Shown piece after piece: positions 33,097-43,478 of a DNA stretch of 61,859 bases (positions are counted from its first letter, which is position 1; every line of letters begins with the position of its first letter). The notes under the pieces are model-generated. The model searched no databases and was not told the DNA's origin. It saw only the letters and a program-made list of their open reading frames with translations. The stretch is taken from NCBI GenBank assembly GCA_026126125.1, contig JAHCJW010000005.1:1-61859 (forward strand), in the 5' to 3' direction. The position numbers were made by a program, and so were the translations under genes. The stretch comes from Devosia sp. (lineage in GTDB: Bacteria > Pseudomonadota > Alphaproteobacteria > Rhizobiales > Devosiaceae).

Positions 33097-33833
33097 TTTC
33101 TACGCCCGAGGAACTGGCCCGCCGCCTCGCCGCCGCCCATGACGGTGGAGAGCCCGTCGGCGCGGTGTCGCCGGACCTGATCCCGGCGGACCTCGTGGGC
33201 GTCTATGCGTTGCAGGATCGGATCATGGCCCTGTTGGGTCCGCTGGGCGGCTGGAAGATCATGGTCGGGTCCGAGGGCGAACCGCTGTGCTCGCCCATCC
33301 CTCTCAGTCGGTATTTGCCGGACGGGGCTGACATCGACGCCGGTCGACATCGGCTGATCATCGCGGAAGTGGAGGTGGCGGTGCAATTGGGGGCGGACCT
33401 TACCCCCGGCTCCGAGGTCGAAGCGGCTATCGCCAGCCTTCATCCGGTGCTGGAGTTCATCGGCGATCCCTTTGCCGACCGCGGCAGGGCCGAACGCAAT
33501 CTGCAACTGGGCGATTTGCAGAGCAACGGCCTTGTCGTGGTGGGTCCGGCGCTGGATCGCAGCGTCATCGGCGCTCTATCCACGCTGCCGGTCGGGCTCG
33601 ATTATGACGAGCAGACGGTCAAGACCGGCGAAGGCGGCGCCAGCTGGAACGATATCGTCGCCGCCCTCACCTGGCTCGCTTCGCATGCCGCCGGGCGTGG
33701 CCTGCCGCTGCGTGCCGGGCAGATCATCATCACCGGCGCGCGCCTTCTGGCACCCCTGACGGGCGCGCGAATGATCGACGGGACGCTGGGCGAGTGGGGC
33801 CGCGTCACGGCAAAATGCCGCTTTACAGCATGA
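33093..33833 (+). CDS. 2-keto-4-pentenoate hydratase-like protein
   Basis: A 246-residue member of the fumarylacetoacetate hydrolase/MhpD superfamily. LGGWKIMVGSEGEPL, IIAEVEVAVQLGADLTPG (acidic metal ligands E-x-E), HPVLEFIGDPFAD, LQSNGLVVVGPALD and a Gly-rich C-terminus match hydratases that add water to 2-hydroxy-dienoates. The family normally has about 260 residues. Start coupled to the DeoR stop. Its 3' end overlaps the convergent che-operon terminal gene by 11 bases. It may process a keto acid made by the upstream module. Confidence 0.82.
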   Translation: MISTPEELARRLAAAHDGGEPVGAVSPDLIPADLVGVYALQDRIMALLGPLGGWKIMVGSEGEPLCSPIPLSRYLPDGADIDAGRHRLIIAEVEVAVQLGADLTPGSEVEAAIASLHPVLEFIGDPFADRGRAERNLQLGDLQSNGLVVVGPALDRSVIGALSTLPVGLDYDEQTVKTGEGGASWNDIVAALTWLASHAAGRGLPLRAGQIIITGARLLAPLTGARMIDGTLGEWGRVTAKCRFTA

Positions 33834-35550
33834 AGTCGGCCATATCGAGATCCGCCTCTGGCTCTGCCTGAAGCGCAGAGGCCGGCGCCCCGAACAGACC
33901 GGCATGGATCGTGCGCTCGGCCTCCATCGTATAGGCCTTGCGCAAGGCTTCAAGCAGCGCGGCGAGACCGGCCGAGGGGCTTGAGGGGGGCGGCGTTGGC
34001 GACAGCGCCGCAATCTGCAGCGCGATATCGGCCATGCCTTCGGCCAGCGCCGCCTGGCCCTGCATGCCCGAGGCCGCTGCCCGCAGAAGCGCGATGACCT
34101 TGGGGCCATCGGCATTGAGACTGTCGAGCGCCTCGACGAGACGGTCGTCGAGACTGGTCAACAGGGTCAGGGCATGGCTGGCCTGCTGTTCGAGCCGCCC
34201 GATCTGACCGGCATTGTCCCCGGCCGCTGCGGCGCCGAATGCCTGGGCCAGCGCCGAGGATTCATCGAGCTGGGTCATGGCCGCCTCGGCCGCCACCACA
34301 GTCTCGCTGGTCAATTCGCGCAACTGGGTGGCAATGACGGTCAGCGAAGCGCCCCTGGGCCCTAACTGGGCGCAGCGGACCGCTGCATTGAGGCTGACGA
34401 GCCGCATATTGGCTTCGATATCCTGCACGGCGGCCACATGGCCAAGAAGCACGGTGACCGTGTCGTGCACGGCGGTGGCGACCGCTTCGAGCTTGGAGCG
34501 CTCGATTTCGCAATCGCGCAGAATGGCCGAGGCGGTGCGCAATTGCGCGTTGAGCGTGGCCATGACCGAGGTGCTGCCCTGGTCGCTCCCATAAAGGTCG
34601 CGGCTGCGCGCCATGATCACGCCGGCGTCACTGGACAGAGCGTCGAGCGCTTTTTCGGCCTCTTCGACCTCCTCGACGAAGCTGGCGGCCGCGCCGCCCA
34701 ATTGCGCTTCAAGCAAGGCGGCGAGAGCGGAACGAACCTCATCGCGTTCCCCCTCGGCGAACACCGTCTCGCCGACAGCATGACCACCGAGCACAGCGCC
34801 CAGCCTCGTCAGCCCATCCTCGATATGCTCGAGGCGCTGGCGGGTGGAATCGCCCACCTGCAAGGCCATGACGGCATTGCCGATCCTTCCGACGATCTGG
34901 CGCGACACCCTTCCGGTCTCGGCGCTCCCCGCCGCCGCCGCCTCGCGCTGATGGCCCAGCGCCTCCAGCGTCTGTTCGAGGCTGCGCGACAATTCGGTCA
35001 GCGTATTGGCGTGGCTTTCTTCGAAGCGGGCGCGCTGACTGGCGGCCTTGGCCACCTCGGCGGTCAATTGCCGATAGACCTGGGAAAATTCCTGGATGGT
35101 CTGGCTGGCCGTGGCCGAGAGCGTGGAGATATCGGTGGTGAACACGTCGAAATCATCGCTGTCGCCGACAATGCCGGCCGCCGTGACCCGGGCGTTGACC
35201 GAGACGATGCCCATCATCTTGACGGCCCGGCGCAAGTCGCCGATCGGCGCGTTGGCGGCGGCCACCACATCGACGAGGCGCGACAGGTCCGCCTTTTCCT
35301 GAACGAAATTTTCGGAAAGCTCGCCCGCCTTTTGCGCCACGGCCCGCAACTGGGCGCTGGCTTCCTCGACTTCGGCCCCTTGCAGGGCGTTGGGCAGGGC
35401 TTCGAAAAGCCGCGTCAATTTATTGAGCATTGAGGCGCCTTCGGTGAGGCGCGCCCCCACCGAGACGAAGGCATTTTCGATCTGCTGGCGCGGCTGGGCC
35501 AGCGCTTCGGCAAGGCGGGTGACATCGGCGGGGGCGGGCGTCCGGGTCAT
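33823..35550 (-). CDS. Soluble MCP-like protein with CheZ-like D-x-T-x-Q motif
   Basis: A 575-residue, mostly helical protein without transmembrane or signal segments, last gene of the che operon (ATGA overlap with cheB). Two degenerate receptor-tip-like hairpins are visible: [31 protein letters not shown] (115-145) and [30 protein letters not shown] (384-413). They recall the [17 protein letters not shown]...[10 protein letters not shown] segment. Between them [19 protein letters not shown] (229-247) has D234-x-T-x-Q238, the spacing of the CheZ phosphatase motif DLTGQ. The protein ends in an acidic peptide DLDMADFML, reminiscent of the CheY-binding tail of CheZ. A CheY-P phosphatase or scaffold role is inferred. 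Confidence 0.8.
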
Positions 35551-36674
35551 GAGCTGGCTCCGGTGGAACGGGGGGCATTGCGGGCAAAGGCGGTGATCTC
35601 GCCCGCCATTTTCGACAGGGGCAGCACACGGGCGGCGGCACCGCGCTGGATCGCCTCCTTGGGCATGCCGAAAACGACCGAGCTTTCTTCGTCCTGGGCG
35701 ATGGTGTGAGAGCCCATCTGCCGCATTTCGAGCAGGCCGCGCGCGCCATCGTCGCCCATGCCGGTGAGCAGCATGCCAAGCGCATTGCGGCCGGCCGCCT
35801 GGGCGGTGGAGCGGAACAGCACGTCGACCGAAGGGCGGTGACGCGAAATATGCGGTCCCTCGAGGATCCTCACCGTGTAGCGATTGGCGTTGCGGACCAG
35901 TTGCATATGCACATTGCCCGGCGCGATCAGCGCGCGACCGGCCATGACCAGATCGCCGTCCTCGGCTTCCTTGACCTCGACGGCGCAGCCGGCATTGAGC
36001 CGCCGCGCGAAGGCGGTGGTGAATTTTTCGGGCATGTGCTGCACGATGAGAATGGCCGGGCTGATGGCGGGCAGGGCTTCGAGCACTTCGCGCAGCGCCT
36101 CGGTGCCGCCGGTCGAGGCGCCGATCGCAACGAGGGGCTCGGTCACCGGCATGCGGGCGATGACGCTCTCGCGGCGCGTGTCGGACAGGGGCGGAATGAT
36201 GGCGTCGGCGGTGAGCTTGGCTTCCACCGTCAGCGCCGGCGCCGCCTTTTTGCGGCCGCGCAGCTTGGCATGGGCCGCCGCCTTGGCCGCATCGCAGATG
36301 CGCATGCGCGATTCCTGCAGGAACTGCGCGGTGTCGACGCGCGGCTTGGCCACCACATCGACCGCGCCCGCCTCGAGCGCCTGCATCAGCGTGTCCGACC
36401 CCGCCTGCGCCAGGCTCGAACAGATCACCACCGGAATGGGACGCTGCGACATGATCTTCTTGAGGAAGGTGATGCCATCCATGCGCGGCAGCTCGATATC
36501 GAGAAACATGACATCGGGCACTTCCTGGCGGATGCGCTCGACCGCGACATAGGGATCGGCAGCGGTGCCCATCACCTCGAGATCGGGATCGGCGGAGATG
36601 ATCTCGCTCAATGTCGTGCGCACCGAGGCGCTGTCATCGACGATGAGGACGCGGATCTTGTTGGAGGCGGACAT
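35547..36674 (-). CDS. cheB: Chemotaxis response regulator / protein-glutamate methylesterase CheB
   Basis: About 375 residues. The receiver domain (1-120) has phospho-acceptor D59 in [13 protein letters not shown] linker of about 55 residues precedes the methylesterase domain with catalytic triad S187 (IGASTGG), H213 (VQHMPE) and D309 (GMGDDGARG). It demethylates or deamidates receptor glutamates and is activated by CheA phosphorylation. The frame also opens four codons earlier at a GTG that overlaps the cheR stop; neither start has a convincing ribosome site. All catalytic residues are intact. Confidence 0.96.
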
Positions 36675-36682
36675 CGGCGGGC

Positions 36683-37561
36683 TCACACGCGCTGGAACAC
36701 GGCAGGCGCAACCTGCCGCACGGGAATGGATGTTCCGATCATGGACTCGGAATGACCAAGAAGAAGATAACCGCCCGGACGCAAATGGCCGACGAGCCGG
36801 CCGATCACCGCCGCCTGGTCGGCCTTGTCGAAATAGATCAGCACATTGCGCAGCAAGATGATGTCGACATCACGGTCGAAGGGATAGGCGTCGTCCATGA
36901 GATTGAGCCGCTGAAACCGCACCAGTCGGCGCAGCTCGGGCACGATGCGGACCTCGGGGCGCAGGTCGGGCTTGCGCGACCACATCAGGTAACGCGCCTG
37001 CAGATCCTGGGGCACGGGCACGATCTGTTCGGCAGGATAGATGCCGCGCCGCCCCTGGTCGAGGACATCTGTCGACACATCGGTCCCCAGAATGGCGAAG
37101 CGAAACCCGGCCCGCTCCCGCGCCATCTCGGCCAGAACCATGGCAGTTGTATAGGCCTCGGCCCCGGTCGAAGCCGCCGCGCTCCACACTTTGAGCATCG
37201 GATTGCGCTCCCGGCTGCGGGCCGCAAGCAAGTCCGGCACCAGCCGCGAGCGCATCAGCCCGAAATGCTCCGGCTCGCGGAAGAAATCGGTCTTGTTGGT
37301 GGTCACTACATTGATGAGATAGACCAGTTCCTCCTCGAGCCCGTCCTTGCGGAAAATATAGTCGCAATAGGCCGAAAAGCTGGGCAAGGAGAGCGCACGC
37401 AGGCGGCGGCGAAGCCGTCCTTCCACCATTGTGCGCTTGGCCGGCGGCAGGCGAATCCCCACTTCCTGGCCGATCAGCGTGGCGATCCTGCCGAAATCGG
37501 CAGCACTGAGATGGTCATCTTCGGCTTGCAGAAGACGGGCTGGCGAAGCTGAGGCCACCAT
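36683..37561 (-). CDS. cheR: Chemotaxis protein methyltransferase CheR
   Basis: A 292-residue SAM-dependent methyltransferase that methylates receptor glutamates. The N-terminal helical domain includes [23 protein letters not shown] and [15 protein letters not shown]. The Rossmann domain has [21 protein letters not shown] (SAM-binding loop) and [13 protein letters not shown]. The visible MCP has no C-terminal pentapeptide tether, so CheR must dock on the receptor directly. GGAG is placed four bases before the ATG. It lies between cheW and cheB. Confidence 0.96.
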
Positions 37562-37609: not shown

Positions 37610-38068
37610 TCAGGCGGCCGACAACACGGCGCTATGGCCCAGAAGCCGATCGAGATCGAGCACGGTGACGAACTCGCCATTGCGCCGGCCGATCCCCTCG
37701 ATGCAATGCCCGCTCCAGGCCGCATTGACCGCCGGGGGCGGATCGAGCTCGTCGCTATCGAGCACCGTGACCTCAAAGACCCGGTCGGCGCGCAGACCCA
37801 GGGTCACCGGACCCGAAGGGCCGGTGATCGAGAGCACGACGATGCGCGTGTTTTCCGTGTCGGTGGCCGGCTCCATGCCCAGGGTCAGGCGCAGGTCGAA
37901 CACCGGCACCCCCTGCCCGCGCACATCGATGATGCCGAGAAAGTTTTCCGGCGCCCGTGGCAGGCGCGAGATCATGCGCATATCCAGGATTTCCTGGACC
38001 TTGGTGACGGGCGCGGCGAATTTTTCATTGCCCACCCCGAGCGTCACATATTGGTTCTGGTCAGGCAT
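37610..38068 (-). CDS. cheW: CheW coupling protein (first of two)
   Basis: A 152-residue SH3-like adaptor linking receptors to CheA. QYVTLGVGNEKFAAPVTKVQEILDMRMISRLPRAPENFLGIIDVRGQGVPVFDLRLTLGM is the standard CheW pattern. The ATG at 38068 is taken because GAGAGG precedes it and the earlier Met would add an unlike extension. Located between the mcp gene and cheR. It differs from the second CheW at 40215, so the two may couple different receptors. Confidence 0.95.
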   Translation of the reverse strand: MPDQNQYVTLGVGNEKFAAPVTKVQEILDMRMISRLPRAPENFLGIIDVRGQGVPVFDLRLTLGMEPATDTENTRIVVLSITGPSGPVTLGLRADRVFEVTVLDSDELDPPPAVNAAWSGHCIEGIGRRNGEFVTVLDLDRLLGHSAVLSAA

Positions 38069-38136
38069 ACTGCCTCTCACTGGGCCGAATTGCGAACGAA
38101 GGCGCGCCACTCTCGCGGCGCGCCCATAAGGATCGG

Positions 38137-40218
38137 TCAGGCAGCGCCGCGGCGCGAGAAGTCGTCGTCGAGCTCGTCCGCGCCACCGTCGAGATCGAGG
38201 TCGAAGCCGCCGGAGCCGGTCCTGGACTTGGTCGCCTTGCTCATATGCGGGGCGGAGGCCATGACGGCGGCGCGCAGGTCGCGCTTGGCCGGCTTGGCCG
38301 CTGCCGTGGCGATGACCGTCGAGGAAGCATCGAGCCGGAAATAGGCGATGGCGGCCTGCAGCTGTTCGGCCTGGCTGGCCAGTTCCTCGGCCGTGGAGGA
38401 CATTTCCTCGGCGGCCGAAGTGTTCTGCTGGGTCACCTTGTCGAGCTGCTGGATGGCGGTGTTGATCTGGGCGGCACCGGCATTCTGTTCGCGGCTGCCG
38501 GCGGAGATCTCTTCCACCAATTCGGCCGTGCGCTGAATATCGGGCACCAGCTTGCCAAGCATGTCGCCAGCCGACTGGGCGGCCTTGACCGTGGTGCCGG
38601 ACAAGGTCGAGATTTCGGCGGCGGCGGCCTGCGAGCGCTCGGCCAGCTTGCGCACTTCGGAGGCGACGACGGCAAAGCCGCGGCCATGTTCGCCGGCGCG
38701 CGCCGCTTCCACCGCCGCATTGAGGGCGAGCAGATCGGTCTGACGGGCGATTTCCTGCACCACCATGATCTTTTCGGCGATGGTCTGCATGGCAGTGACG
38801 GCGTTGTTGACCGCTTCGCCCGAGGCGATGGCATCGGCCGCGGACTGGCGGGCGATCTTTTCGGTCTGGATGGCGTTGTCAGCCGACTGCTTGATGGTCG
38901 CGGCCATTTCTTCCATCGAAGCGGAGGCTTCCTCGGTCGAGGAGGCCTGCTCGGTGGCGCCCTGGCTCAACTGCTCGGCGGTCGCTGACATTTCGTGGCT
39001 GCCAGCGGCGACGTTGCGGGTCGCGGCGGTCACTTCGGCCACCACTTCGCGCAGCTTGCGCGTCATCATGTTCAGAGCCTTGATCAGATCGCCGACTTCG
39101 TCGTCGCCCTTGACGTCGGCCGTGGCCGAAAGATTCCCCGCGGCCACGTCGTCGGCCAGACGCACGGCGCTGGAGAGAGCCTTGGAGATGCTCATGACGA
39201 TCCAGGTTGCGGCGACGGCAGCGATCAGCACCGAGACGATAAGCAGACCGATGAGGAAGAGGCGGGTCTGTTCGTAGAGGCTTTCGGCATCCTCCAGTGC
39301 CTTGGCCGTGGTCTGCGCGTTACGGTCAATAATGCGATCGAGTACAGCGACCGCCTCGAGCCGCAACGGCGCGCTGCGGGTGTTGGCGATTTCCGTAGCG
39401 TTGTATTGTGAGCGCTGGATGGCAACGGCGTTGCCCTTGTCCATCGCGGCAAACATCTGATCGAAATCCGCGCGCAATTGCTGCGCGACCGCCGCTTCGG
39501 ACGGCCCCAGCAGCCGGGTCAGCCGGTCGATATTGGGCTCGATACGCTTGCGTACCCCGTCGAAATCGCCAAACCACTGGTCCTGCTTGGCCGGGTTGCC
39601 CGAAGCCAGCAGCACGTTGCGGTGCTGACGGAATATGTCGCTGGCGTCGAGCAGCAGGCTATTGGCCGCTTCAAAGGCGGGGAAGGCCGAAATATCGCCA
39701 TTGAGGACGCGCTGCGACAGCACCGGCAGCAGCTTCTCCATGGTGTTTTCGACGGCGGTGATGGCCGCGCTGCCTTCCGAGGTGGTGATGGCGAAGGCGA
39801 CCGTTTCGGAATTCTTCATCGCCTGCGCCCGCGCGTCGATCAGGGTCAGCCAATAGGCGTCGAGCGTGGTGAGGAAAACCTGCATGTCGCTGACATTGTC
39901 AGCATTGGTGAAGGTGCTCGCCAGATCGGTCGCGAAGGTCTTGATCTGGTTGAAGTTGGTCTGCATGGAGCTTTCCAGCGCACTCAACTCGGCATCGTCG
40001 GTGCTGAGCATCATGGCCCGCATGTCGTTGGCCATGGAAGTCAGATCGGCCTCGACATCCTTGAGCTTCTGGGCGCGCTGCACGGGACCGTTGATGACGG
40101 TGCCCATGGACTGGTTGATCCCGCCCAAGCCCTGCAACGCCAAAAACATGCTGGCGCCGGACAGGACCACAACGGTCGTGAACACAGCGGCCAGTTTTGT
40201 CTTGATAGTCAATCTCAC
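38137..40218 (-). CDS. Methyl-accepting chemotaxis protein
   Basis: A 693-residue transmembrane receptor. TM1 at about 9-31, a large periplasmic helical sensor (32-318, four-helix-bundle-like), TM2 at about 320-342, HAMP 343-395, then the cytoplasmic hairpin with the conserved tip [41 protein letters not shown] (about 489-529). The C-terminus is Arg/Asp-rich ([16 protein letters not shown]) and lacks an NWETF-type pentapeptide. It is coupled to the upstream cheW by ATGA, so it is the dedicated receptor of this operon. Ligand unknown. Confidence 0.96.
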
Positions 40219-40727
40219 GGTGCAGACCTTTCTTCTGAAGCCGCTGCGGGCGCGCTTCTGCCGCCCGATGTTTCGAAAATACGTTCCATATCGGGAATGA
40301 TGATGAAGCCGCCATTGCGCTTGCCAATGCCCTTGACGAATTCGGGGCGCCAGCGCATGCCGACCTTGGGGGCCTCCTCGATGGAGGCGGCCTCGATGTC
40401 GGTGACGTCGTGAACCTTGTCGGCCAGAATGCCGGCAATGGTGGGCTCGCCATCGATGTCGACTTCCATGACGACGATGCGGGTATCCTGGTCGGGCTCG
40501 GGCCGCTCCATGCCGAACATCACCCGCAGGTCGGCCAGGGGCACGACGCGCCCCCGGACATTGATGAGGCCGCCCACAAAGGCGGGGGCATTGGGCACTT
40601 CGGTGATGGGCACGAGGTCGAGGATTTCCCGGACCCGGCTCGCCTCGACCGCGAAAAGCTCGTCTTCAAGACGAATGGTCAGCGCCGTCATCGGCGCATC
40701 CGGCCCGCCTGCTTGGATCGTGCTCAT
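40215..40727 (-). CDS. cheW: CheW coupling protein (second)
   Basis: A 170-residue CheW protein. [58 protein letters not shown] is diagnostic, followed by [22 protein letters not shown]. It overlaps cheA upstream and mcp downstream by ATGA, so CheA, CheW and the receptor are produced from coupled cistrons. It is longer than the copy at 37610, with Pro/Ala/Glu-rich ends. Confidence 0.95.
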
Positions 40728-42763
40728 GCGGCCCTCCCCATGGCTAGATTGTTCTCGACATAGCTCTGGCCCGACGCCACCAGATGCGCGGTGTCGAGGA
40801 TCAGGGCCACGCTGCCATCGCCCAGGATCGTCGCGCCGGAGAACGACTTGATGGCCGAATGCAGCTTGGACAGTTGCTTGATGACGGTCTGGTTGTTGCC
40901 GATGATCTGATCGACCACCAGGCCAACGCGGCCTTCGCCGGAAGAGACGATGACCACCTTCTGGTGCTCATCGGCGGCACCCTTGAGCCCGAAGACCTCG
41001 CGCAGACGCAGATAGGGCACGAGGGAGCCGCGTATATCGAGGAAATTGCGCCCCTTGGCATAGGCCTCGATCCCGCCGGGCAGTTCGACGCACTCCTCCA
41101 CCGCCGCCAGCGGGATGGTGTAGCGGCCATTGCCGACGCGGACGAGCATGCCATCGATGATGGCGAGGGTGAGCGGCAGACGCAGGGTGAGCGTCGAACC
41201 CTGGCCGGGCCTGCTGACCAGGTCGATGGTGCCGCGCAGCCCGTCTATGGTGCGCTTGACCACGTCCATGCCCACGCCCCGCCCAGAAAGTGCGGTGACC
41301 TCCTTGGCGGTCGAAAAACCCGGCGCGAAGATCAGGTGGTGCAGTTCCTGCTCGGTAAGCTTGGTTTCGGGGGTGATGATGCCGTTTTCCTCGGCCCGAG
41401 CGCGAATGCGCGCCACATCGAGCCCGGCCCCGTCATCGGAGACGGAAATGGCCACCTCGGCTCCCGAATAGACCGCTGAAAGCCGCACCGTGCCCAGGGG
41501 CGACTTGCCCGGCGCCGCGCGTTTTTCGGCGCTTTCCAGGCCATGATCCACCGCGTTGCGGATCAGGTGCACCAGCGGATCGGCCAGGCGCTCGATCATG
41601 GTCTTGTCGAGCTCGGTGTCTTCGCCGGTGGTGATGAATTCGATCGGCTTGCCCAGCTCGCCCGACAGATCGTGCACGAGGCGGCGGAAGCGGCTGAACA
41701 GCGTGCCGATGGGCACCATGCGGATGCCCATCGTGGTGTCGCGCAGGCCCGAAGACAGGCGTTCGAGCTCTTCGGCGATGGTCTTGAGATTGATATCGGC
41801 GCTGGAGGCGGCGATCTGGGTCAGGCGCGCCTGGGCGATGACCAGTTCGCCGACCCGATCCATCAATTCATCGAGCCGTTCGGCCGGCACACGAAGCGAA
41901 GTGGCGGCAGGCTTATCATCGGAGGGCTTATCCGCCGGCTTGGCGCGCTTGGGTGCCACGGCGACCGGCGCGGCAGCGGCAATAGCGACGGAAGGCTCGG
42001 GGGCGACCAAGGGCTCCGGCTCCGGCAGCGTGGCCTCCTCTTCCTCGTGCAGCGGCTCGAGGCTCAGCTCCATCGTGTCGCGCAGGAACAGGAACACATC
42101 ATCGATCGCCGCAGCCGGATCATCGGCGGTCAGGTCGACCTGCCAGCCGATATAGGCGTTTTCCGGCTCGAGCAGGTCGAGATTTGGAATGCGATCGGTC
42201 AGCGCCGTGACGACCACGGGCCCGATCTGCGCCAGCTCTTCGAGCAGCAGCAAGGGGTTGGTGCCGTAGATGAGGGCATCGGCCGGCAGGTGGAAGGTGA
42301 GACGCCAGCGCTTGCTCGCGGTGGCACCGCCCTTGGCGGCCGTGGAGAGAGCCTTCGCAGGCACGGCCTCGGCGGGAGCGGTAGGGAAAGCGTCGCCATC
42401 GACGATGGCGCGCAGTTCGGCAAGAATACGCACGCCGCCATCCACGGGCGCATCGGGCGTTTCGATCAGCAGATGGATATGGTCCTTGGCATCGAGCGCC
42501 ACGCCGATCAGCGCGGTGTCGACCTGGCTCTGACCCTTGCGCACCCGATCGAAGGCGGTTTCGAACTCGTGCACGAACTCGGCCACCGCCGTGAAGCCGA
42601 ACATGGCGCCCGAACCCTTGATGGTGTGCAGCGCGCGAAAGGTGGAATTGATGAGATCGTTATTGGCCGGATCCTGTTCCAGATCCAGAAGGCCCGCTTC
42701 GAGCTGATCGAGCAGCTCGCGCGCCTCCTGACGGAACGTCTCGGTCGGATCGGAAATGTTCAT
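40724..42763 (-). CDS. cheA: Chemotaxis histidine kinase CheA
   Basis: A 679-residue kinase with P1-P5 layout. The Hpt domain has phospho-acceptor H46 in RALHTIKGSGAMFGF. A P2-like region (RWRLTFHLPADALIYGTNPLLLLEEL, about 147-235) follows an Ala-rich linker. P3 dimerisation (VPAERLDELMDRVGELVIAQARL) and P4 ATPase (HLIRNAVDHGLE N-box, DDGAGLD G1, GRGVGMDVVK G2) are intact. The P5 regulatory SH3-like domain ends GDGSVALILDTAHLV. It phosphorylates CheY and CheB. Overlaps cheY upstream and cheW downstream. Confidence 0.97.
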   Translation of the reverse strand: MNISDPTETFRQEARELLDQLEAGLLDLEQDPANNDLINSTFRALHTIKGSGAMFGFTAVAEFVHEFETAFDRVRKGQSQVDTALIGVALDAKDHIHLLIETPDAPVDGGVRILAELRAIVDGDAFPTAPAEAVPAKALSTAAKGGATASKRWRLTFHLPADALIYGTNPLLLLEELAQIGPVVVTALTDRIPNLDLLEPENAYIGWQVDLTADDPAAAIDDVFLFLRDTMELSLEPLHEEEEATLPEPEPLVAPEPSVAIAAAAPVAVAPKRAKPADKPSDDKPAATSLRVPAERLDELMDRVGELVIAQARLTQIAASSADINLKTIAEELERLSSGLRDTTMGIRMVPIGTLFSRFRRLVHDLSGELGKPIEFITTGEDTELDKTMIERLADPLVHLIRNAVDHGLESAEKRAAPGKSPLGTVRLSAVYSGAEVAISVSDDGAGLDVARIRARAEENGIITPETKLTEQELHHLIFAPGFSTAKEVTALSGRGVGMDVVKRTIDGLRGTIDLVSRPGQGSTLTLRLPLTLAIIDGMLVRVGNGRYTIPLAAVEECVELPGGIEAYAKGRNFLDIRGSLVPYLRLREVFGLKGAADEHQKVVIVSSGEGRVGLVVDQIIGNNQTVIKQLSKLHSAIKSFSGATILGDGSVALILDTAHLVASGQSYVENNLAMGRAA

Positions 42764-43128
42764 GCTCCCGTGACCTTCTTGATGACCGCCAGCAGCTGAT
42801 CCTGCTTGAACGGCTTGACGATCCAGCCGGTGGCCCCGGCCTCCTTGGCCTGACGCTTGAGTTCCTCATCGGACTCCGTGGTCAGCAGGATGATCGGAAT
42901 GCCCTTGCTGGCCGGGTGCTGGCGATATTTGCGAATGAACTCGATGCCGTTGAGAACCGGCATATTGAGGTCGGTGATCACCGCATGGACCGTATTGGTC
43001 GTGGCCTTGTCATAGCCGTCCTGGCCATTGACGGCCTCGATGACATCAAGGCCCGCGCCCGTGAGGGTCATGGCCACCATCTGTCGGATGGAGGCGGAAT
43101 CGTCGATTGTCAGAATAGTCTTGCTCAT
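42760..43128 (-). CDS. cheY: Chemotaxis response regulator CheY
   Basis: A 122-residue single-domain receiver. Acidic pair in TIDDSASIRQM, phospho-acceptor Asp in AVITDLNMPVLNG, Thr in ILLTTESDEE and Lys in WIVKPFKQDQL are all present. It should bind the flagellar switch when phosphorylated. It is the only CheY in the window. Two-CheY systems use a phosphate sink; here no second copy is in the operon, which makes a dedicated phosphatase of interest. Overlaps cheA and the STAS gene by ATGA. Confidence 0.96.
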   Translation of the reverse strand: MSKTILTIDDSASIRQMVAMTLTGAGLDVIEAVNGQDGYDKATTNTVHAVITDLNMPVLNGIEFIRKYRQHPASKGIPIILLTTESDEELKRQAKEAGATGWIVKPFKQDQLLAVIKKVTGA

Positions 43129-43460
43129 GGCGTCGAGGCCCCGATTGTCTGATGAGATTGGCCAGCCCAGAACGTCGCCGTCGCCTCTGCCGCCAGCAGG
43201 CCGGCCGCCTCGAGCACACGGCGCAAGGGCTCGGCGATCGGGGCCAGCATCACCAGGGCCTTGCCTTCCGCGCCGGCCTTGATCCGGGCCGACAGGAGCG
43301 CCTGCACCGTGGTGAGGTCCGCGCCGGTCATGGTCTGGGTATCGATGCCGATATCGGCATGCGCATCGAGCGCCTGTCGCAGGGCGGCAGCCACGTCCTG
43401 CGCCGCCTTGATGGTGGCATCGCCACCCAGAATGAGCGTGTAAGAGCGGGCGTCGGTCAT
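43125..43460 (-). CDS. STAS-domain protein, first gene of the che operon
   Basis: A 111-residue protein of STAS/anti-sigma-factor-antagonist fold: SYTLILGGDATIKAAQDVAAALRQALDAHADIGIDTQTMTGADLTTVQALLSARIKAGAEGKAL. The usual D-S-S-G phospho-serine site is replaced by ADLTTV, so phospho-control by a kinase is doubtful. Such proteins often lead che operons in alphaproteobacteria; their role is not well defined. Start ATG 43460 has no good ribosome site; a TTG at 43478 is the alternative. The operon promoter should lie just upstream. Confidence 0.78.
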   Translation of the reverse strand: MTDARSYTLILGGDATIKAAQDVAAALRQALDAHADIGIDTQTMTGADLTTVQALLSARIKAGAEGKALVMLAPIAEPLRRVLEAAGLLAAEATATFWAGQSHQTIGASTP

Positions 43461-43478
43461 GACCGCGACCCAGGGCAA

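Follow-up and report, generated by a model that had tools for sequence, protein, structure and literature searches.

The window, i.e., the whole stretch of 61,859 nucleotides that was analysed, holds a chemotaxis operon with the order STAS-CheY-CheA-CheW-MCP-CheW-CheR-CheB-X (Table 1), in which X stands for a 575-residue soluble tandem receptor-like protein, considered here as a putative phosphatase of phosphorylated CheY (CheY-P). The preliminary description, which gave no strand, had this reading frame closing the operon, and we indeed found it there on the minus strand, with its start overlapping the cheB stop by four bases (sequence ATGA) and a convergent gene lying downstream of its end. 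The other features initially described were also recovered: X is free of membrane segments (its Kyte-Doolittle mean over 19 residues peaks at 1.45), D234-S-T-R-Q238 lies inside a stretch of 17 residues, the protein has the acidic end DLDMADFML, and the operon has a single cheY. No Pfam or NCBIfam model recognizes X at its cut-off; the best Pfam match, MCPsignal, covers the second half only and scores 17.7 bits, below the curated cut-off of 34.6 bits for this MCP signalling domain (PF00015). Ten named relative loci, all from Devosia, display 63-78% identity to X in the best segment.

Table 1 Coordinates of the operon genes, of the features within X (aa, residues of X) and of a gene pair in a near relative
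Feature	Position	Strand
X, tandem receptor-like protein, proposed CheY-P phosphatase	33823..35550	-
cheB (Pfam)	35547..36686	-
cheR	36683..37561	-
cheW (second)	37610..38110	-
MCP with 4HB sensor, HAMP and signalling domain	38137..40218	-
cheW (first)	40215..40727	-
cheA	40724..42763	-
cheY, proposed substrate when phosphorylated	42760..43128	-
STAS-domain gene	43125..43478	-
First receptor-like copy, aa 1-262	34765..35550	-
Degenerate receptor tip 1, aa 115-145	35116..35208	-
Segment-profile match in X	34795-34977	-
Proposed catalytic segment (12 residues), aa 231-242	34825..34860	-
D234 codon	34849-34851	-
Q238 codon	34837-34839	-
Second receptor-like copy, linker and tail included, aa 263-575	33826..34764	-
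Degenerate receptor tip 2, aa 384-413	34312..34401	-
Second-copy equivalent of the motif, D and Q replaced (A500, E504), aa 497-506	34033..34062	-
Conserved YTMxxERxxH block, aa 540-549	33904..33933	-
Disordered tail with acidic-hydrophobic end, proposed CheY-binding peptide, aa 556-575	33826..33885	-
Near relative G057, single-hairpin match and CheA pair	G057:C1:814586-814963, G057:C1:816735-817709	

Conservation and genomic setting of X

In a protein with the composition of X, a D...Q pair alone is expected 1.6 times (3 were found, with 0.1 expected for D.T.Q), and conservation was thus used as the test instead. Among 50 loci, 42 sequences were kept after dropping the window itself (L001) and copies identical over positions 21-500, and three sequences were added, leading to an alignment of 45 (the window and 44 others) in which L091 was counted for its first half only. 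D234 and Q238 are invariant in 45/45 aligned sequences, with identities down to about 23%, and eight of the 15 invariant columns fall inside Q231-H242 (Q231, D234, T236, R237, Q238, R239, E241 and H242), this segment (QxGDxTRQRxEH) being the best-conserved 12-mer of X in the alignment. A deeper set of 25 sequences, composed of 12 from the first alignment and 13 loci from a phylum search (L123 being the same gene as L089, L135 trimmed at its N-terminal extension, and 13 of the 25 genes shared with the first alignment), displayed D234, R237, Q238, R239, E241 and H242 in 25/25 cases and T236 in 23/25, as well as Y540, M542, E545 and R546 of the YTMxxERxxH block in 25/25. Conservation among orthologues, on which the preliminary description had staked the phosphatase idea, was thus found in every sequence of both sets, and the reading of the motif as a chance occurrence was rejected, since the conservation of D234 and Q238 goes beyond chance.

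The C-terminus of X behaves differently in its letters and in its type. Following a variable linker, an acidic-hydrophobic end was found in 44/45 sequences, the exception being L091 (G444), a gene on a short contig whose frame is interrupted once the first half has been read and which was therefore rejected as a genuine first-half-only short X. The letters of these ends vary while their type remains constant, i.e., acidic, then hydrophobic, with F or L as the last residue (e.g., DLDALFF, DDIFF and DALF). One orthologue (L045:7134-9131, minus strand, in G052) carries a long tail with several acidic-hydrophobic repeats, which reads as if several CheY-binding peptides had been strung together.

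Matches to X were found in 51 of the 101 relatives at E<=0.001, of which 43 were strong (E<=1e-30) and eight were weak matches to the receptor-like half; 40 of the strong ones fall in the 61 same-genus genomes. X has no match in 21 of the 61 same-genus genomes and is therefore not essential to the genus. An orthologue of the operon CheA (E below 1e-200) occurs in 41/101 relatives, and the two proteins occur together in 41 genomes, X alone in 2, CheA alone in none and neither in 58, a co-occurrence for which the Fisher value is not a probability, the genomes being related. The two X-only cases correspond to a genome with a CheA fragment and to a fragmented, 78%-complete assembly. In addition, X adjoins che genes at 17/17 loci checked for neighbours: at 14 it lies directly 3' of cheB on the same strand, and at three (L043, L164 and L165) it lies on the opposite strand, beside cheB or the STAS gene. 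Note that one genome holds a second, broken X copy with an internal stop (G015:C4:2949-4663), its intact copy lying on another contig, and that the genome of the window has FliM.

Two receptor-like copies and their predicted fold

Despite its PF00015 score below the cut-off, the receptor homology of X was shown by profile comparison, the first-half profile finding solved soluble MCPs (best 3g67, E=1.4e-8). The two halves are also homologous to each other, since residues 60-231 match residues of about 325-497 with the deeper alignment (hhalign Prob 92, E=5.6e-7; E=0.0081, i.e., weak, with the shallower first alignment), and X is therefore an internal duplication. Within this register, D234 and Q238 stand opposite A500 and E504 of the second copy, two columns that are variable among the X orthologues; judging from these alignments, the D/Q site is kept in the first copy and lost in the second.

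The two degenerate receptor tips noticed at the outset were recovered, with 8/28 residues (around N119) and 12/28 residues (around N388) matching the tip of the operon MCP, and X consequently lacks most of the canonical CheA/CheW-binding tip of PF00015. With so few canonical residues left in either tip, the idea of a decoy receptor binding CheA or CheW, also put forward in the preliminary description, is weakened. The degeneration of the tips suggests that docking in the receptor array has been given up by X, in contrast to the single-hairpin forms considered below.

The structure prediction called for in the preliminary description yielded an all-helical AlphaFold2 model (pLDDT 81, pTM 0.52), in which D234 and Q238 are placed in a long helix (132-254) confidence is low over residues 556-575, a tail thus predicted to be disordered, and a short helix is drawn at 570-573. 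When the first half was folded alone, pLDDT dropped to 68 and pTM to 0.34, which fits a packing of the halves together but proves nothing. Foldseek searches of the PDB with the X model gave 629 matches with a cut-off of E<=10, with receptors up to a probability of 1.0, but nothing reached E<=0.001; CheZ was absent among the 50 of these 629 matches that were listed, and nothing useful was obtained against viral models.

Single-hairpin and hairpin-free relatives

At E<=1e-5, a search of the phylum with the first-half profile gave matches in 82 out of 398 genomes. Thirty loci were fetched, among which 17 (L122-L138, L122 being the window itself) were X or its orthologues, all with the D and the Q. 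Eight of the 13 others encode soluble receptor-like proteins that carry the motif [LIF]QF[QE]DxxxQ and terminate in, e.g., DIELF or DITFF, and five (L144 and L146-L149) are without QF[QE]DxxxQ. Taken with wide flanks (L152-L159), seven of the eight single-hairpin proteins, all from other Pseudomonadota, are located among che genes, with cheY, cheW or cheA as neighbours. They resemble X in the DxxxQ segment, the che-gene neighbourhood and the acidic-hydrophobic tail, and differ from it in having one hairpin, the motif QF[QE]DxxxQ and a nearly canonical tip: 18-24 of the 28 residues are kept in 8/8, and MCPsignal was found over its cut-off (55-91 bits) in 6/6 proteins scanned in Pfam. In G057, a near relative of the genome of the window, a single-hairpin match (in a 464-aa frame) was also observed, and a third CheA lies no more than about 2 kb away (Table 1).

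A profile of the motif-to-tail part of these eight proteins, built without X and named A4, found X as its only match in the genome of the window (E=9e-7), and it matched the X segment in 8/8 genomes with E-values of 1.2e-8 to 3.2e-5. At E<=1e-4, A4 matches 126/398 Pseudomonadota genomes, X orthologues and hairpin-free forms being counted. The best 30 loci display QFxDxxxQ in 30/30 cases, an acidic-hydrophobic end in 29/30 and a che gene within the fetched stretch in 29/30; eight of them are members of the profile itself, and motif and tail are partly built into this choice of loci, whereas the che neighbours are not. A PDB sequence search with A4 returned nothing useful. The hairpin-free forms (L196-L203) are proteins of 190-231 aa with a QFxDxxxQ segment, all eight ending in ELF, and none of the seven scanned (all but L201) reached a Pfam or NCBIfam cut-off; they may be further unrecognized CheZ-like proteins.

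The deep X alignment matched A4 at residues 206-254 (Prob 95, E=3.9e-8, hhalign E-values for single pairs being rough) and the hairpin-free set at 207-259 (Prob 93) and 462-575 (Prob 86); the score against the hairpin-free set was reached by 0/60 column shuffles. When the eight columns of the motif were masked, X still matched A4 at 206-254 (Prob 76) and the hairpin-free set at 207-259 (Prob 72) and 462-575 (Prob 81), the latter two with scores of 42.5 and 45.7, while the highest-scoring of 60 shuffles reached 17.1. The link to the single-hairpin segment thus survives the masking of the motif, and therefore the DxxxQ segment of X and of the single-hairpin proteins is, on these profile comparisons, shared by descent.

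CheZ, CheT and the proposed function

Profile searches for the CheZ, CheC and CheX families found no match in the genome of the window, and X itself has no match to CheZ (PF04344) in Pfam at E<=1. The comparison with CheZ profiles envisaged in the preliminary description thus gave no match, and X as a plain CheZ was rejected on this ground. The statement that most Alphaproteobacteria lack CheZ proved too broad here, with PF04344 found in 24/101 relatives, but it holds for the 61 same-genus genomes, none of which has a match; X and a PF04344 match do coexist in a single genome (G094). In the same-order genomes (G062-G100), most of the 24 CheZ-match genomes displayed two to four match pieces, and with several pieces at clearly different places, several CheZ-like genes per genome seem to be common. 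Eight alphaproteobacterial CheZ proteins all carry FQD[LIV]TGQR, five of them ending like SQDDIDALFx and three running on to other tails that end in LFx.

When the X and CheZ profiles were compared, the best match fell at 395-489, outside the motif, and the motif register came second (E=0.025). A4 matched CheZ in the motif register with Prob 79 (0/60 shuffles), a likeness to be read with the fact that its members were picked for QF[QE]DxxxQ; with the motif masked, the score was 15.5, four columns out of register and reached by 3/60 shuffles. Descent of X from CheZ was set aside, these matches being weak or motif-dependent. CheZ may be a distant relative of the segment found in X and the single-hairpin proteins or a convergent match to it, the likeness of X to CheZ itself lying in the motif.

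In CheZ, the catalytic pair is Q147 and D143, and a C-terminal peptide holds CheY. The aspartate, four residues before the glutamine, engages the active-site lysine of CheY, and the glutamine, inserted in the CheY active site, orients water. X resembles CheZ in its DxTxQR within a helix, its acidic-hydrophobic C-terminal peptide, its che setting and the proposed chemistry. In contrast, X is a 575-aa receptor-derived tandem scaffold while CheZ has about 200-250 aa, and the chain of X, a proposed pseudo-dimer, would carry a single site while CheZ is a homodimer. CheC, CheX and FliY carry out the same reaction as that proposed for X, from which they differ in fold and motif. According to PMC7750401, both the DXXXQ site and the region at the C-terminus that binds CheY are retained in the Azorhizobium CheZ, and DXXXQ is the phosphatase motif reported both for CheZ (PMC7750401) and for CheT (PMC12654446).

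According to a review (PMC12654446), CheT of Sinorhizobium meliloti has a DXXXQ motif and a CheZ-like predicted structure, and speeds the dephosphorylation of one of two CheY-P. Like X, it carries this motif and is encoded in a che operon of an alphaproteobacterium, but it is much smaller. The genome of the window holds a second che cluster (G000:C68; STAS, two CheY, CheA, CheW, CheR, CheB and MCP), and beside its cheW, on the strand opposite to the che genes, lies an unnamed 117-aa reading frame (L088:7233-7586, plus strand) that carries LQGQDRIEQRC, ends in GEIELF (i.e., acidic-hydrophobic) and is matched in 56/101 relatives, all of the same genus. By motif, size and place, this protein looks like CheT, to which we liken it by description. 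X compared with the CheT-like set gave weak matches, the first half in the motif register (E=0.19) and the full-length protein outside the motif, and the idea that X and the CheT-like protein are homologous was thus set aside.

Phosphate sinks and CheT are among the answers given to the open question of how systems that lack CheZ, CheC and CheX remove CheY-P. Among the titles listed in literature searches, whose scope lay mostly outside subscription journals, none dealt with a DxxxQ phosphatase of receptor origin, and the passages on CheZ or phosphatases in PMC10542144, PMC7184735, PMC5907407, PMC2577667 and PMC8563088 describe no such protein.

Taken together, X is probably a soluble CheY-P phosphatase of receptor origin, by which signalling would be terminated in this CheZ-lacking che system. 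An invariant pair with the CheZ spacing and a CheZ-type tail make CheY-P dephosphorylation the likeliest function, and we propose by analogy a DxxxQ phosphatase on a receptor-derived tandem scaffold that works most likely like CheZ, without being classed as one. The suggestion of an unrecognized CheY-P phosphatase made at the outset is strengthened by the invariance of D234 and Q238 in both alignments, CheZ profiles nevertheless giving no match to X. It also gains from the conserved CheZ-like tail, from the presence of X in 41/41 genomes with the operon CheA and from the relatives in che operons. As for the mechanism, we infer by analogy the packing of the halves, CheY binding, catalysis and the identity of the substrate. 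The two homologous hairpins of one chain would pack into a single-chain pseudo-dimer, in which the catalytic pair would sit on the first copy, in its returning helix, and the disordered tail would capture CheY-P by its acidic-hydrophobic end, as the CheZ tail does. Q238, like Q147 of CheZ, would then position the water molecule that attacks the CheY phospho-aspartate, and D234, like D143, would hold the active-site lysine of CheY. The operon's CheY-P would be the substrate of the first copy, and the second-copy site, having lost its D and Q, would be dead, leaving one active site per chain.

Other functions have to be weighed against this phosphatase. V. cholerae DosM is a receptor with a double signalling domain. 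Like DosM and the soluble MCP domains that occur naturally as single chains (in Rhodospirillum centenum and others), X has two signalling hairpins in one soluble chain, and this parallel, together with the receptor origin of both of its halves, would suit an array or scaffold protein, i.e., a tandem soluble receptor joining or capping the chemosensory array, with the conserved block serving folding or docking. Such natural single-chain signalling domains exist, that of R. centenum among them, with a role given as unknown in PMC4692393. However, the tips of X are degenerate, unlike those of these proteins and of the single-hairpin relatives, and its best-conserved stretch is the D/Q block and not a tip, so that a scaffold function appears unlikely.

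The conserved acidic-hydrophobic end, and the several such repeats in the long tail of one orthologue (L045), would equally serve a CheY-binding adaptor or sink, in which tail and helix hold CheY-P without faster dephosphorylation; binding alone does not need the exact invariance of D and Q at catalytic spacing, and we consider this function less probable again. A phosphatase acting mainly on another receiver, such as that of CheB or a CheY of the second system, and not on the operon's CheY, has the lowest probability in our assessment. In its favour, X starts in the cheB stop, the second cluster holds two CheY genes, and CheT reportedly acts on just one of two CheY-P (PMC12654446), but X is absent from the same-genus genomes that have the second-system CheA only, and the second system has its own CheT-like DxxxQ protein.

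Beyond the window, the CheY-P phosphatase reading may extend to many proteobacterial che operons, a tentative generalization that we hold to be almost evenly balanced between right and wrong. The signal would be ended there by a receptor-derived phosphatase with a CheZ-type site on the returning hairpin helix and a tail that fetches CheY-P; the tips of the single-hairpin forms would put the phosphatase in the array, while the form found in the window would be a duplicated, array-free chain with one live and one dead site. X provides a concrete candidate, defined by two residues and one peptide, in a protein that the family libraries leave unnamed, and if the proposed function is true, some proteins likely to be annotated as soluble methyl-accepting chemotaxis proteins would be enzymes of signal termination.
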